Positions 5,163 through 32,015 of a stretch of DNA of 33,521 bases are shown here, piece by piece. Within the stretch, counting starts at the first letter, position 1. Every line of letters starts with the position of its first letter. The notes under the pieces were generated by a model. It did no database searches and had not been told where the DNA came from. It was given only the letters and a program-made list of their open reading frames with translations. The stretch comes from Pseudanabaena frigida. GTDB lineage: Bacteria > Cyanobacteriota > Cyanobacteriia > Pseudanabaenales > Pseudanabaenaceae. The translations under genes were made by a program, and so were the position numbers. The stretch lies in NCBI GenBank assembly GCA_003242085.1, contig QBML01000046.1, forward strand, positions 1 through 33,521, read 5' to 3'.

Positions 5163-7136
5163 ATGAAAAGTTTGTGGAGCGATCGCGAAGCATCAGAATA
5201 TAAAACTGATTTAGGGTTAAGAGTATATACATCAAGGTTATTAGGGTGCGATCCCTCATTGGTGCTGCATGGTGGTGGTAATACTTCCGTCAAAATTCGC
5301 GAGCAGAATATCGTTGGCGAAGAAGAAGAGATTCTCTATGTCAAGGGAAGTGGCTGGGATTTAGAAACGATCGCTGAAGCGGGTTTTGCCCCCGTACGCA
5401 TGACGCATCTCTTGAAATTAGCAAAATTACAAGTTCTCTCAGATTCACAAATGGTGAATGAACTGAAGACGCAAATGACGAAAGCAAGTGCGCCTGCGCC
5501 ATCGGTAGAGACGATTCTCCATGCTAGCTTGCCTTATAAATTTGTCGATCATACCCATGCTGATGCGGTGATTTCGGTAACAAATACAGCGAATGGATGG
5601 GAACGCATTCAGGAAATCTATGGCGATGATGTAGTAATCATTCCCTACGTAATGCCAGGGTTTGACCTAGCAAGAGTCTGTGCGGAGAAATTTGCTGCGG
5701 AGAAAAGCGATCGCACGATTGGCATGGTGTTAATGAATCACGGTATTTTCTCTTTTGGCGAAACTGCACGGGAATCCTATGAACGGATGATAGCCTTAGT
5801 CGATCGCGCTGAAGTTTATTTACAAAAACATCATACTTGGGAAATCTCACCACCAGCCTCTCTGATTAGGGAAAGCGAGCAGAGAATAGAGATTGCCCAA
5901 CTAAGGTCTGAAGTTTCTCAAGTCGCGGGGTTTCCCGTAGTTCTAAGTTCCCATACCGATGAGAATAGTTTAGCCTTTGCCCAAAGAGGAGACGTGAATA
6001 TCATTTCGCAGCAAGGCTGTGCGACTCCTGACCATGTGATCCGTACTAAGCGTTTGCCTCTAGTCGGTAGAGATGTAAAGACTTATGCTGAATCCTATCG
6101 TGCTTATTTTGCGGAAGAATCGCCTAAGTCAATACAGCCAGTTACTATTCTCGATCCCGCACCCCGTGTCATCCTCGATCGCCAATTAGGTCTAGTCACA
6201 GTGGGTAAATCTGCTAAAGATGCCGCAATTGTCGCAGATATCTACGAACATACGATAGAAATAATCCAGCGATCGCAACTTTTGGGCGGATATCAAGCAT
6301 TACCTGCTAGCGATATCTTTGCGGTGGAATATTGGGAATTGGAACAGGCGAAATTGAAAAAAGGAGGTTCCTCTCCTGCTTTTACAGGTGAAATTGCATT
6401 AGTCACGGGTGCAGCGTCAGGTATCGGTAAGGCTTGTGTAGATTCATTATTAAAGCGCGGCGCAGCAGTAGTTGGTTTAGATATTAATCCCGCCATTGAG
6501 AAGCTATACGATCGCCCTGACTTTGTCGGTGTTACTTGCGATGTCAGTGATGAAACTGCGATCGCTAAGGCTCTCGACCAAGCCGTAAAATCCTTTGGTG
6601 GTTTAGATATTCTCATTCTCAATGCAGGAATTTTTCCCTCTGGCTGCCGCATTGAGAATCTCGATACTGCCACATGGCAAAAGGTAATGCATATCAATCT
6701 CGATGCCAATTTAGTCCTAATGCGTGAAGCCTATCCATTGCTCAAACTTGCACCTAATGGCGGTAGGGTTGTGGCGATCGGTTCTAAGAATGTCCCTGCT
6801 CCAGGCCCTGCGGCGGCGGCATATTCGGCATCAAAGGCAGCATTAACGCAATTAATGCGGGTGGCAGCTCTGGAATGGAGCAGCGATCGCATTCGCATTA
6901 ACACGTTGCATCCCAATGCGGTGTTTGACACGGGGCTTTGGACAGAAGAGGTTTTGACATCCCGCGCCAAGCATTATGGATTAACGATTGAGGAATATAA
7001 AACCAATAATCTGCTCAAAGTGGAAGTTACGAGCCACCATGTCGCTGAACTCGCCGCCGAGATGTGTGGCAAGTTGTTTGCCTGTACGACGGCTGCTCAA
7101 GTTCCTATTGATGGTGGTAACGATCGCGTCATCTAA
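5163..7136 (+). CDS. Bifunctional class II aldolase / short-chain dehydrogenase (RhaD-like fusion)
   Basis: The 657-residue protein fuses two enzymes. Residues about 15-330 form a class II aldolase/adducin domain; DHTHAD puts candidate metal-ligand histidines at 130 and 132, and MNHGIFSFG lies further on. From about residue 408 a classical SDR domain begins with the NAD(P)-binding motif TGAASGIG (415-422), NAGIFPSG, and the catalytic YSASK (Tyr554, Lys558), ending in PIDGGN. Similar fusions are annotated as rhamnulose-1-phosphate aldolase/lactaldehyde dehydrogenase, cleaving a deoxy-sugar phosphate and oxidising or reducing the aldehyde formed. No kinase, isomerase or transporter for rhamnose or fucose is adjacent, so the true substrate is uncertain. 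The ATG at 5163 follows a terminator, so the gene probably has its own promoter. A large perfect palindrome follows the stop codon. Confidence 0.88.
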   Translation: MKSLWSDREASEYKTDLGLRVYTSRLLGCDPSLVLHGGGNTSVKIREQNIVGEEEEILYVKGSGWDLETIAEAGFAPVRMTHLLKLAKLQVLSDSQMVNELKTQMTKASAPAPSVETILHASLPYKFVDHTHADAVISVTNTANGWERIQEIYGDDVVIIPYVMPGFDLARVCAEKFAAEKSDRTIGMVLMNHGIFSFGETARESYERMIALVDRAEVYLQKHHTWEISPPASLIRESEQRIEIAQLRSEVSQVAGFPVVLSSHTDENSLAFAQRGDVNIISQQGCATPDHVIRTKRLPLVGRDVKTYAESYRAYFAEESPKSIQPVTILDPAPRVILDRQLGLVTVGKSAKDAAIVADIYEHTIEIIQRSQLLGGYQALPASDIFAVEYWELEQAKLKKGGSSPAFTGEIALVTGAASGIGKACVDSLLKRGAAVVGLDINPAIEKLYDRPDFVGVTCDVSDETAIAKALDQAVKSFGGLDILILNAGIFPSGCRIENLDTATWQKVMHINLDANLVLMREAYPLLKLAPNGGRVVAIGSKNVPAPGPAAAAYSASKAALTQLMRVAALEWSSDRIRINTLHPNAVFDTGLWTEEVLTSRAKHYGLTIEEYKTNNLLKVEVTSHHVAELAAEMCGKLFACTTAAQVPIDGGNDRVI

Positions 7137-7156: not shown

Positions 7157-7227
7157 GGACTTTCAAAACCCAAACAAAGAAAGGTGGCGCTTTGCGCCAC
7201 CTTTCTTTGTTTGGGTTTTGAAAGTCC
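7157..7227. repeat. Perfect palindrome, 34-bp arms (family copy A)
   Basis: Arms 7157-7190 and 7194-7227 are perfect inverted complements around a ttt loop. From outside in: ggactttc, the shared block aaaaccca, a copy-specific segment (aacaaagaaaggt) and a ggcgc core. It begins 20 bases after the aldolase/SDR stop and could serve as a transcript 3' structure. It belongs to the palindrome family also seen at 18080, 25646, 25760, 27348 and 33469. Confidence 0.9.
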
Positions 7228-7272: not shown

Positions 7273-7722
7273 ATGATACAGATAGAAGGAAAACTAATTC
7301 AGGGGCATCAGGTAGCATCTGGCAAATCCCCTAATAGTCCCTATACAGAAGGTACAATCGCTACACAAATACCATTCTTTCAAAAATTGGGTGTTGATTT
7401 TTCTCCTTACTTTCAAGGTACTCTGAACATAGATATTTCGCCTCATATTTACGTTATGAAAAAGCCTCAATTTTCCTTTCAGCAAGTAAACTGGACAACC
7501 GCACACCCACCTGAGGATTTTTCATTTTCAAGATGTCACATCATTTACAACAACGAGAGCTATGATGGCTGGGTCTATTATCCACATCCAGAAACTAAAA
7601 TTCAGCATTTTCATAATTCTTCAGTGATAGAGTTAATTGCAATGCCAATTCCTAATATTAAATATGGCGATCGCCTAAAGATATCGATTAACAATTTAGA
7701 GATTGATGTTATCGAAGCATAG
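7273..7722 (+). CDS. Small protein resembling archaeal CTP-dependent riboflavin kinase (DUF120-like)
   Basis: This 149-residue protein is not a standard cyanobacterial housekeeping product. Its order of motifs resembles the archaeal CTP-dependent riboflavin kinase family (MJ0056 type, Pfam PF01982). It starts with a strand IEGKLIQGHQVASG. Then come FSPYFQGTLNIDIS near 54-67 (family pattern: small-GTLN-hydrophobic), a middle strand pair, DGWVYYPHPETK near 96-107, and a C-terminal SSVIELIAMPIPNIKYGD like the family's SxxIEIIAP...GD ending. The length is also close to the family's. The comparison is from memory, not an alignment. Cyanobacteria usually make FMN with bifunctional RibF, so this protein may have another ligand or role. 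It lies alone between two palindromes with its own ATG at 7273. Confidence 0.6.
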   Translation: MIQIEGKLIQGHQVASGKSPNSPYTEGTIATQIPFFQKLGVDFSPYFQGTLNIDISPHIYVMKKPQFSFQQVNWTTAHPPEDFSFSRCHIIYNNESYDGWVYYPHPETKIQHFHNSSVIELIAMPIPNIKYGDRLKISINNLEIDVIEA

Positions 7723-7757: not shown

Positions 7758-7808
7758 ACACCCAAAAGAGAGAGATAGCATAAAGGTCTATCTCTCTCTT
7801 TTGGGTGT
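7758..7808. repeat. Palindromic repeat, 21-bp arms (copy B)
   Basis: Arms 7758-7778 and 7788-7808 pair perfectly around a 9-base spacer. The outer part (acacccaaaag) resembles the aaaaccca outer block of the main family, but the GC-rich core is missing. It starts 36 bases after the 7273-7722 gene and may act as its terminator, although no long T-run follows. Confidence 0.8.
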
Positions 7809-7927
7809 ATTTTGGGACTTATTGATTAAATTTTGGAAACTAAGGTTGGGTTTGTTCAATTTTAACTATCTATTCTAATGAACTGGCGATAGATTATAGG
7901 CATAAAGTTTTCTAATACTTGATTTAT

Positions 7928-9361
7928 ATGGCAATTCCTCAGCACTTAACCAAGATCGTTGCCACAATTGGTCCCGCAAGCAGATCACCTGAAGTATTCC
8001 GAAAAATGGTGAAAGCAGGTGTAACTGTAGCGCGATTGAACTTTTCTCATGGCAGTTATGAAGACCATGCCAAGACAATTAGTATGATTCGTGAAGTGTC
8101 TGAAGAATTAGACGTTCCGATTACAATTTTACAGGATTTGCAAGGTCCTAAAATTCGAGTTGGTGAGTTGCCTGATGTGGGGATCGATTTAGCTGAAGGT
8201 GATGCAATTACGCTAGTTCCAACAGATAAGTTTCAACAAGGCGATCGCGTTTATACGAATTCTGTGACTATTGACTATCCATACGTTGCCGAAGAAGCCA
8301 CTATTGGCACACAAGTCCTCTTAGCCGATGGTATCTTTGAACTCAGGGTAAGTGGCATTGAAGATTATGCTGTTCATTGCGAAGTAATTAAAGGTGGTCT
8401 TCTCACAAGTCATAAAGGCGTAAACTTTCCCAGTCTAAATTTGCGGTTACCGTCAATGACAGATAAAGATCGACAGGATTTAGCATTTGGTTTAGAGCAA
8501 GGTGTCGATTGGATTTCTTTGAGCTTTGTCAGGCAAGCCGCAGATGTGAGAATGCTCAAAGCATTAATCACAGAGTATGGGAAGTCTGATGTATCAATCA
8601 TCGCTAAAATCGAAAAACCTCAAGCGATCGCCAATCTGGAAGAAATTCTCACTGTGGTCGATGGAATTATGGTAGCAAGGGGCGATCTGGGTGTGGAGAT
8701 GCCTCCAGAACAAGTTCCTACAATCCAAAAGCATATTATTCGTCGTTGCAATGAAATCGGTATTCCCGTGATCACTGCTACACAGATGCTAGAAAGCATG
8801 ATCCAAAATCCGCGTCCAACTAGGGCTGAGGCAAGTGATGTAGCAAATGCGATCATGGATGGAACTGATGCGGTAATGCTTTCGGGGGAATCAGCAGTCG
8901 GGGCATATCCCGTACAAGCCGTAGAAATGATGACGAGAATTGCGGCTGAAGTGGAGAAAAACGCTCAATTTGTCAACTATCCTGCTTCTGGAACCGATGA
9001 GGTTCATGCTATTAGCGAAGCACTTCATGTGATTACTGATACGATCGACTTCCGTTGTATTGTCGCTTTTACAGCAAGCGGTTACACTGCAATTCTCGCT
9101 TCCAAAGAGCGTCTAAAAATTCCAATTATTGCCCTCTCACCAAATATAAATGTATATCATCGCCTCAATTTAGTTTGGGGTGTTAAGCCCTTGTTACTAG
9201 ATCGAGAAGTAACCTCCTTTGAAATGGTAATTCAACAGGTGGAGTCATGTTTACTAGAGCGTAATTTAGCGATCGAGGGCGATCTCATTCTGATTGTTGG
9301 CGGTATTCCTATGGGCATCAAAGGAGGCACAAACTTCCTTAAAATCCACATCATGCCTTAA
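7928..9361 (+). CDS. pyk: Pyruvate kinase, short form
   Basis: Pyruvate kinase transfers phosphate from phosphoenolpyruvate to ADP, the last glycolytic step. From the ATG at 7928 the product is 477 residues; an in-frame TTG nine bases upstream is a less likely start. The family motifs are all present: TIGPASRS and RLNFSHG at the N-terminus, QDLQGPKIR, the signature [10 protein letters not shown] with the catalytic lysine, [12 protein letters not shown], and [20 protein letters not shown]. The length matches the shorter of the two cyanobacterial pyruvate kinase types; it lacks the extra C-terminal PEP-utiliser-like domain of the roughly 590-residue type. It is flanked by a palindrome upstream and a convergent phosphatase gene downstream (59-base gap), so it is probably monocistronic. 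Confidence 0.96.
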
Positions 9362-29549: not shown

Positions 29550-32015
29550 CTATTCATAAGGTCCTAGAAATCTTTCTCCATTGAAATGAATCATGTGATC
29601 TGGCTGATCGGCAACCCAAACTTCCGTTTCCCAAGAAATTTCGGCTAGATATTTTGTCATTTCTTTCCGACTGGGGAAAGCAGTTACAAAGACTAATCCC
29701 TCTCGACTTGAATGAAAGATTTGCTTTAATTCATTACGACGTTTTAAGTTAACTGGACCGTGGCTAGTTACAGCTTCTACTAATACAAGCCAACCTTGAG
29801 CTTCGTAATGAACTACAAGATCTGGCATTTTACCGTGAGGATCAAGTTCAATGCATAGTTCTTGAAATCTTTGAGTTTCATTAACGATAAATTTTTCTCC
29901 AGCATCACCAACATATAAGACAATGCCTTTAGGAGTAAATCTAGGGCAAAACTTCTCTAAAATTTCTTTTATCAATAGATTTTGCCCACCTGACGAAAGC
30001 TGAATTGACTTGCCATCAGGTAGGGTAACGGGAATCATTGAGATATTTCTTTCCTTTTCCCTCAATATATTTTTGACCGAAACAGCATAATTTCGACAAA
30101 ATTCTTCCCACCGATCAGAACCGTAGGATTGCAGGAGAGAAAGAGCTTGCGGATGAAGTTGATAACACCACTTAGGGCTATTGATTGGACGATCTGGACA
30201 ATCAGGATTTTCTATTACCAGTCCCATTTGTACGAACTGATGCATTGTTTGTCTTCGTACAGTTTCTCTTGTATTAGGCGCGTATTGTTTACCGTAGTAA
30301 TTCCGAAACCAATCCATCATTTCGGTAATTCTACGTCTTGGCGCTGTTGACTGATGCCAAAGTGTATCGGGGCGAAGGTCAGCTAATGCTAGCAAGCAAA
30401 GTGCTGAGCGTTCATTCTGTTGTTCTTTTGGTGCAGAAATATTTTTAAGAATAAAAATTGCTTCTTCAATGCGTTGACTGGCTTGAAGCGCATGAGTTAC
30501 TTCGCTCATAATTGACAAAGTTTTGTGAACAAGATTATCAAGAGTTAATTGATCGGTTATAGAGTCACCAACTTGGCTCCCTAGAGACATCAAAATGTCT
30601 CTACAAGGGTATTTCATTCTACGCAAATCTGTTGCATTGATTTGTGTATGACCACTAAATTGTCGAAAATAGTTATCAAATAGTGTTGAATTGAGGAAAG
30701 CTGTTAATCCCTTTGCTAGATCAGGATTGAGACTTTCACCTTTAGCATGAAAGTAGTTAAGATGGTTTTCTATACCCAGTAACGATTTATCCATCGGAGA
30801 ACAAACAGCAGCCGTAATACGGCGTTTTTCCTCTTTTGCTGAGAATCTTTTTGTCAAAACATAACACCCCTTTGGGATTAACCATTTTTGAGTTGTAAGA
30901 TTGTGTTCAATTGAGATCGCTTTACGAGGATTCTTTGGAGGAAAGACAAATTTTCCTGCTTTGATAGATTCGGGATAGATCAAAGGAACATTTTTGTGAT
31001 CTAGATAACTCCTTAAGTCAGACTTGAGACGAAAATCTACAACTGGTCCAGTTGACACATCTAATCCAAGTTCCTCTAAAGTACAGGGCATTTTATGCAT
31101 TTGTATTCTTAATGCATCTTCTAGAGAATTGGTAATAATGTGGATGAATTGATCAGAATCATTTTTTTCAATTACTTCATCATAGGGTACGGTTCTTATT
31201 TCTGAAAATTCATCCAAATCATTTCCAGAATGATTAGTGACTTCTATAAACCTAGGCTTCAGTTTTGTTTTAGTAGCGTGGAAAATAATATTTTCCTGTA
31301 GTACATTATCGTCAGCAAAAGCAGTTGAACGACTCTTAAATACATGGATTTTTTCAATCCCCATTTCTTTAAAAATTGCTTTGCGAAATGGACGGAAATA
31401 TGTGCCGTTACAAAAGCTTCTTGGGGTAATAGCAACTATTTCCCCACCTTCTACAAGCTTCAACATAGTAATCCAGACAAAAGCGCTGTAAAGATTACCC
31501 GTTTCAATACCAAGATGTGAGAGAGATTGCTTCTCACATGATTGACTATTGATTTTCTTGTAAGGCGGATTTAGAATCGCATGAGTAAAAGAATCTGTAG
31601 ACTTATATAAAAGTGATTTATCACTTTCAGCAGTAGCTTCTATAAAGTTCTTTTTATGTAGTAAATAACTCGCCTTAATTCCTTTGTTTTGTAAAGCAAC
31701 ACAGCATTCAATCAATCTTTGTTTTAATGATGGTAGAAAACTTGGCTCAATTTCATAAGCTGTTATGAAGCAACTTTCTATAGGATTAGAACTAATTAAT
31801 AATTGCTCTACAAAAGCTGTAGTTAATGAGCCAACTCCAGCTCCTGCATCGAGCAAGCTAATTTGTCCCGATAGATTATTAAATTGTCTTGCCATGAAAC
31901 GAGAAATTGGAGCAGGTGTTAAAAATTGTCCTAATTCGTTACGTTTTTCTAAATTTAGTCTTGATGATAAATGAATTCTATCTATATCAGTAGAGTCGCT
32001 AAGAAAGGTTATCAT
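29550..32015 (-). CDS. Fused adenine methyltransferase / BsuBI-PstI-type restriction endonuclease
   Basis: The 821-residue protein combines modification and restriction in one chain. The N-terminal part has Eco57I/PstI-like N6-adenine methyltransferase motifs: GQFLTP (29-34), SAM-binding LLDAGAGVGSL (54-64) and catalytic NPPY (149-152). About residues 510-660 resemble the helical/winged N-terminal domain of BsuBI/PstI endonucleases (NERSALCLLALADL, APNTRETVRRQTMHQF, RPINSPKWCYQL). Residues about 695-821 match their catalytic domain: YVGDAGEKF, HGKMPDLVV (Asp732), LVEAVTSHGPVN (Glu747) and a closing DHMIHFNGERFLGP. PstI and BsuBI themselves are made as separate enzymes, so the fusion is unusual. 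Recognition may be CTGCAG-like but is untested. There are no HIP1 octamers in 2.5 kb, hinting at transfer; sat beside it also seems to lack them, so this is weak evidence. Confidence 0.9.
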   Translation of the reverse strand: MITFLSDSTDIDRIHLSSRLNLEKRNELGQFLTPAPISRFMARQFNNLSGQISLLDAGAGVGSLTTAFVEQLLISSNPIESCFITAYEIEPSFLPSLKQRLIECCVALQNKGIKASYLLHKKNFIEATAESDKSLLYKSTDSFTHAILNPPYKKINSQSCEKQSLSHLGIETGNLYSAFVWITMLKLVEGGEIVAITPRSFCNGTYFRPFRKAIFKEMGIEKIHVFKSRSTAFADDNVLQENIIFHATKTKLKPRFIEVTNHSGNDLDEFSEIRTVPYDEVIEKNDSDQFIHIITNSLEDALRIQMHKMPCTLEELGLDVSTGPVVDFRLKSDLRSYLDHKNVPLIYPESIKAGKFVFPPKNPRKAISIEHNLTTQKWLIPKGCYVLTKRFSAKEEKRRITAAVCSPMDKSLLGIENHLNYFHAKGESLNPDLAKGLTAFLNSTLFDNYFRQFSGHTQINATDLRRMKYPCRDILMSLGSQVGDSITDQLTLDNLVHKTLSIMSEVTHALQASQRIEEAIFILKNISAPKEQQNERSALCLLALADLRPDTLWHQSTAPRRRITEMMDWFRNYYGKQYAPNTRETVRRQTMHQFVQMGLVIENPDCPDRPINSPKWCYQLHPQALSLLQSYGSDRWEEFCRNYAVSVKNILREKERNISMIPVTLPDGKSIQLSSGGQNLLIKEILEKFCPRFTPKGIVLYVGDAGEKFIVNETQRFQELCIELDPHGKMPDLVVHYEAQGWLVLVEAVTSHGPVNLKRRNELKQIFHSSREGLVFVTAFPSRKEMTKYLAEISWETEVWVADQPDHMIHFNGERFLGPYE

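Follow-up and report, generated by a model that had tools for sequence, protein, structure and literature searches.

A bacterial protein family that is probably sister to the archaeal CTP-dependent riboflavin kinases, represented in Pseudanabaena frigida

Background

CTP-dependent riboflavin kinase is known from archaea, and its barrel has links to the DNA-binding cradle-loop proteins. A stretch of 33,521 nucleotides from Pseudanabaena frigida (contig QBML01000046.1, which is contig C40 of the 5.39 Mb genome denoted here G000; hereafter, the window) encodes a protein of 149 residues, P0001, that recalls this enzyme, and the question that the locus raises is whether a cyanobacterial gene can indeed be assigned to this lineage and, if so, whether its product performs the same reaction. 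Among the titles listed in literature searches for DUF120, MJ0056/RibK and RbkR, none dealt with bacterial relatives, and we found no paper that joined CTP-dependent riboflavin kinase, bacterial and cyanobacteria.

The P0001 gene and its surroundings

An earlier note, made from the letters of the window alone, had described an open reading frame of 149 codons with several characteristic motifs, and all of these were found as described, namely GTLN (residues 49-52), GWVYYP (99-104), SSVIELIA (116-123) and GD (132-133):

7273-7722, forward strand: gene of the 149-residue riboflavin-kinase-like protein P0001, with an ATG start and a stop codon at 7720-7722

This open reading frame is a genuine gene, kept by purifying selection, and not a chance frame, given that it is encoded in 17 of the 58 related genomes compared (its own included, with the best copies in the other 16 at 42-73% identity) and that the dN/dS ratios are 0.06-0.11 in three of the seven orthologue pairs compared, silent sites being saturated in the other four. 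The flanking genes lie on the same strand and encode a bifunctional aldolase/dehydrogenase (5163-7136) and pyruvate kinase (7919-9361); the former, a bifunctional class II aldolase/short-chain dehydrogenase, matches NF006196 above the cut-off. The P0001 gene is bracketed by perfect inverted repeats, at 7157-7227 (34-nt arms, 3 nt between) and at 7758-7808 (21-nt arms, 9 nt between), which may be terminators or repeat elements, and neither was listed by the terminator scan. Elsewhere in the window, on the reverse strand (29550-32015), a single open reading frame of 821 codons combines an Eco57I-type methylase region with a BsuBI/PstI restriction endonuclease domain.

Relationship to the archaeal riboflavin kinases

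The sole Pfam match of P0001 is to PF01982 (CTP-dep_RFKase), with an E-value of 0.0042 and 17.5 bits (17.2 bits in the search of its own genome), below the gathering cut-off of 25 bits for this family. NCBIfam contained no match, and the PDB searched by sequence returned no meaningful match for P0001 and none for the family profile. When 64 family members were scanned singly, PF01982 was matched by 25 of them (E 10 or better; best E 0.00025), compared with six of 64 for the next family. Profile-profile comparison with hhalign gave a score of 34.1 (probability 69, 89 columns) against MJ0056 combined with the Thermoplasma RbkR, and 27.1 (probability 23, 32 columns) against five archaeal sequences; thus, the length of the match varies with the archaeal template. 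None of 200 column-shuffled versions of either template reached the real score (best shuffles 20.8 and 22.6). The resemblance to PF01982 exceeds chance, as judged by the Pfam match, the recurrence of this match among family members and the shuffles, but P0001 falls short of the family cut-off.

The structural comparison leads to the same relative. The AlphaFold model of P0001 (pLDDT 90.3, pTM 0.86) retrieved with Foldseek, as its top five matches, five chains of MJ0056 (E 8e-7 to 7e-6), the only structure below E 0.001, followed by a match at E 0.019; as superimposed by Foldseek, the model and MJ0056 agree only moderately (query-based TM-scores of 0.50-0.63 and rmsd values of 3.7-6.5). With VIA-align, the model superimposes on MJ0056 with bound CDP and FMN (2vbv_A) over 124 residues with a Z score of 14.3 and an rmsd of 2.2, and on the archaeal RbkR (5trd) with a Z score of 11.7. 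A second model, built from a Chloroflexota-led alignment of 36 non-cyanobacterial rows, 33 of which are common to the first alignment, gave Z scores of 14.0 to 2vbv_A and 11.6 to RbkR. The first match other than an archaeal riboflavin kinase was 3op1 for the P0001 model (Z 6.8, followed by bacterial flavokinase modules at 6.2 and 5.8), and stood at 7.0 for the second model. The kinase module of bacterial RibF (PF01687) may share a remote barrel likeness with P0001, with 1s4m and 5a8a coming after the archaeal rows at Z scores of about 5-6; across 1n06, 5a8a and 1s4m, the scores are 4.7-6.2 for the P0001 model and 4.8-6.4 for the second model, below the telling level of the tool.

Taken with the shuffle-controlled profile scores, the two models matching MJ0056 make homology and a shared fold with this enzyme well supported, so far as predicted structures can tell. 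The note had proposed a relative of the MJ0056/DUF120 family with a cradle-loop barrel and had named an unrelated family without this fold as the contrary outcome; the predicted models match MJ0056, and the note recognised a real, non-obvious relationship.

Besides sharing the predicted fold, P0001 has its GTLN, P and E-I-I-A motifs arranged as in MJ0056 (RibK; PF01982; PDB 2vbv, 2vbu, 2oyn) and the same core Thr, Asn and Glu, at about 22% sequence identity. The similarity to RbkR (PDB 5trd, 3cta) extends over the fold of the kinase domain; RbkR, which a passage of PMC8305020 describes as both a gene regulator and an enzyme, contains a helix-turn-helix domain, whereas P0001 has no such domain.

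Conserved residues and the question of the donor

The motifs of P0001 were compared across 93 family rows, among which at least two genes are included twice:

7303-7323, forward strand: GHQVASG, residues 11-17, at the site of the archaeal GxGxG loop, rewritten; G11, A15 and S16 in 93/93 rows
7417-7428, forward strand: GTLN, residues 49-52; T50 and N52 in 93/93 rows, aligned with T43 and N45 of MJ0056
7510-7536, forward strand: PEDFSFSRC, residues 80-88, a family-specific block; E81, F83, S84 and F85 in 93/93 rows
7579-7599, forward strand: YPHPETK, residues 103-109; P104 aligned with archaeal P96; H105, T108 and K109 in 93/93 rows
7630-7641, forward strand: ELIA, residues 120-123; E120 in 92/93 rows, aligned with archaeal E107; the LR that follows in archaea is absent

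When eight family members were aligned jointly with five archaeal enzymes (MAFFT), G11, Y24, T50, N52, P104 and E120 were the six positions without variation. In MJ0056, T43 and N45 presumably bind Mg as metal/phosphate ligands and E107 contacts the flavin, whereas both the SGxGxG loop and the LR region are taken here to touch CDP. The two groups of residues have fared differently. The residues corresponding to T43, N45 and E107 persist in the family, but of the archaeal SGxGxG signature (S13, G14, G16 and G18, each in 5/5 archaeal rows) only the first glycine (G11) remains invariant, GHxVASG standing in place of GxGxG, and L114-R115, present in 5/5 archaeal rows, has been removed by a deletion of four residues. 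The family also carries an insertion of five residues relative to the archaeal enzymes in the YPHPETK region, including HPETK. Of the metal/CTP-binding residues that the note had asked about, the presumed metal and flavin positions stand, and the GxGxG and LR signatures are gone.

The family has invariants of its own, A15, S16, Q32, W74, E81, F83, S84, F85, H105, T108 and K109, each found in 93/93 rows, and among these, the conservation of Q32, W74, E81, H105, T108 and K109 suggests an enzyme. Taken as a whole, the residues are consistent with an enzyme that keeps the archaeal core for phosphoryl transfer and has a different pocket for the donor, and perhaps a different acceptor as well. Use of CTP, which the note named for the MJ0056/DUF120 family, is unsupported by the sequence because P0001 lies below the PF01982 cut-off and the archaeal donor-loop and LR signatures are missing. 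For the same reasons, the failed family cut-off and the two lost signatures, the name CTP-dependent riboflavin kinase should not be applied to P0001, which is more likely a bacterial relative of that kinase serving another purpose.

Phyletic distribution

A 17-row alignment was used for a pattern scan of the GTDB species genomes, in which 318 relatives were confirmed. The best 80 of these 318, which were kept, comprise by title 40 cyanobacteria, 37 Chloroflexota and three others (KSB1, Fermentibacteraceae and a Gracilibacteria bin), the closest named copies being from Pseudanabaena. Hence the protein is cyanobacterial, as the note stated, but not exclusively so. The copy from the Gracilibacteria bin clusters with Hydrococcus in the tree and, for this reason, is perhaps misbinned. 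The only annotated family copy that we encountered is labelled 'hypothetical protein', and a genome-contig scan with P0001 as a single query found nothing.

The spread of the family across bacteria is patchy. Of 291 cyanobacterial genomes, 34 gave a hit (four hits are short pieces, three of them with internal stop codons), and the gene was detected in 37 of 121 Cyanobiaceae and in nine of 199 genomes in the class of one Anaerolineales genome. In the 93-row tree, the Chloroflexota copies adjoin those of Pseudanabaena, within the cyanobacterial spread, a position that hints at transfer, with weak support (81/69 and 90/89) and a midpoint root.

An origin as a virus or phage gene was rejected because 50,697 phage records gave no match, because viral contigs yielded 12 pattern stretches of which none could be confirmed, and because a scan of viral contigs with archaeal templates found nothing. 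No viral structure matched at E 0.001, the top viral row (E 0.016) being a giant-virus riboflavin kinase. Among plasmids, a single record, a Pseudanabaena plasmid, contains a family member.

Co-occurrence with RibF and candidate acceptors

RibF (PF01687) is encoded in 55 of the 58 relatives, including all 17 that carry the P0001 gene. It was likewise found in each of 18 other gene-positive genomes from cyanobacteria, Chloroflexota, KSB1 and Fermentibacteraceae, which we chose from the 80 loci (best 80 of 318 relatives); in the KSB1 bin, the RibF match is partial, at a contig end. P0001 differs from RibF in having no match to PF01687 in the Pfam scan up to E 10, and the lone PF01687 match in its genome lies elsewhere (G000:C29); a separate RibF gene is present in the gene-positive genomes checked. 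Because RibF is present in all gene-positive genomes checked, P0001 was rejected as the main flavin kinase of the cell and is not the source of bulk FMN. Bacterial hosts with RibF are, with the sequence differences described above, what sets this family apart from MJ0056.

A monofunctional supplement to RibF is another matter, and P0001 could be a true second riboflavin kinase that converts riboflavin to FMN with ATP or CTP, for example, where FMN is made without FAD. The nearest fold, MJ0056 with bound CDP and FMN, and the retention of T50, N52 and E120 speak for this explanation, and the archaeal P-x-x-T can be matched by eye to P104...T108, a region where MAFFT leaves a gap. The ubiquity of RibF in the genomes checked and the loss of the archaeal GxGxG and LR signatures speak against it, as does the lack of any riboflavin-pathway family among the 25 of 73 families listed for 60 close same-strand neighbours. 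On balance, we consider a second riboflavin kinase unlikely, although it is the strongest of the competing explanations.

By chemical analogy only, the acceptor could also be the deazaflavin FO, which serves photolyase as an antenna pigment and has the same ribityl tail as riboflavin. Formation of FO needs cofG. Across 35 genomes of the window's family, matches to this gene were absent or weak (E 4e-7 or worse), the weak ones being taken for other radical-SAM proteins; on this count, cofG is lacking from 13 of the 17 gene-positive relatives. Among gene-positive Cyanobiaceae, a strong match (E under 1e-50) was found in 14 of 37 genomes and not in the other 23, and few of the strong matches in this family passed the curated cut-off (2 of 121). 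Phosphorylation of FO is accordingly highly improbable, and the distribution of cofG, which these 13 relatives and 23 Cyanobiaceae lack, refutes FO as a general acceptor.

Genomic context and predicted function

In some Pseudanabaena, a cpYpsA (SLOG) domain is fused ahead of the P0001-like domain; the two of these proteins that were scanned match PF12694 with E-values of 3e-32 and 1e-31. Among the 58 relatives, intact fusions are found in six genomes of the window's genus (G002, G005, G008, G010, G016 and G021), a seventh (G019) is broken, with the cpYpsA part in two frames, and other genomes encode cpYpsA alone. Four of the 80 loci (best 80 of 318 relatives), all from Pseudanabaena, contain the fusion. 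The SLOG domain is unrelated to the P0001-like domain; the gene in the window does not encode it, and the genome of the window has no cpYpsA match at E 0.001. According to passages in PMC9503650 and PMC6459960, SLOG domains bind or process nucleotides and the superfamily includes sensors.

The fusion and the rewritten donor loop are compatible with P0001 being a ligand-binding domain without catalytic activity, a sensor of some flavin or nucleotide, partnered, for example, with cpYpsA. This would hardly account for the preservation of T50, N52 and E120 in 92-93 of 93 rows, and most family members are unfused: 76 of the 80 loci have no nearby cpYpsA, as judged with a Pseudanabaena query that could miss distant ones. 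We regard a sensor as quite improbable, more so than a second riboflavin kinase.

A second association was observed in picocyanobacteria, where six of 13 gene-positive genomes from the 291-genome set were examined in wider windows. In all six loci, genes for TerC and DUF6464 are located upstream of the family gene and share its strand (one locus was identified with Pfam and the others by their similarity to it, the sixth DUF6464 by eye), and in five of the six, the gap between the DUF6464 gene and the family gene is 3 to -29 bases, measured on first-start open reading frames. Among 30 loci from the 58 relatives, one has TerC and DUF6464 no more than about 1.5 kb apart, and the genome concerned does not carry the P0001 gene, which hints that the P0001-like gene joined an existing TerC-DUF6464 pair. 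Together, the cpYpsA fusion and the TerC-DUF6464 neighbours point to nucleotide and metal handling.

We conclude with moderate confidence that P0001 belongs to a separate bacterial family of cradle-loop-barrel phosphotransferases, the sister group of the CTP-dependent riboflavin kinases of archaea, with a role other than bulk FMN synthesis and a different use of the donor. It most likely works as a metal-dependent small-molecule phosphotransferase. In such an enzyme, T50 and N52 would hold Mg2+ and the transferred phosphate, E120 would activate the acceptor hydroxyl, and the rewritten GHxVAS loop together with the new PHPETK segment (H105, T108, K109) would bind a donor other than CTP, or bind the donor differently. 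The substrate would probably be a small molecule resembling a flavin or a nucleoside, in a nucleotide-related pathway that is dispensable. More tentatively, and with the balance of probability against it, this could be a bacterial family of kinases, previously without a name, that has adopted the barrel of the archaeal riboflavin kinases with both another donor and another acceptor, whose product is processed by the SLOG domain in Pseudanabaena and tied to TerC metal homeostasis in picocyanobacteria. A widespread bacterial sister family would mean that the riboflavin-kinase fold has found uses beyond archaea and beyond bulk FMN synthesis; P0001 is a small protein with clear residues for mutation, and its two genomic partners hint at where the substrate may be sought.

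Other neighbours of the gene vary. No neighbour is conserved family-wide among 79 of the 80 loci compared (L082, with no open reading frame for the domain, was dropped). There are 73 same-strand neighbours within 150 bases, and the 60 scanned include eight metallophosphoesterases, three ChpXY proteins and three type I phosphodiesterases, all apparently clade-specific. In three related cyanobacterial loci (L045, L062 and L095), the gene is directly 3' of the gene for the CO2 hydration protein (ChpXY), and in eight Chloroflexota loci (L040, L050, L053, L070, L072, L076, L093 and L099), a calcineurin-like phosphoesterase gene lies downstream of it on the same strand.

Finally, some picocyanobacterial copies contain a C-terminal extension, for which Pfam gave no match in the two proteins scanned. 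This extension of about 70 residues, with the motif LLEFLKFRVLA, is present in eight of 12 translated copies (L118-L122 and L127-L129). A similar sequence is a separate downstream open reading frame in L149 (8180-8419), was also noted at L172, and occurs in one of 116 drawn cyanobacterial genomes (G045) as a separate frame of 109 codons.
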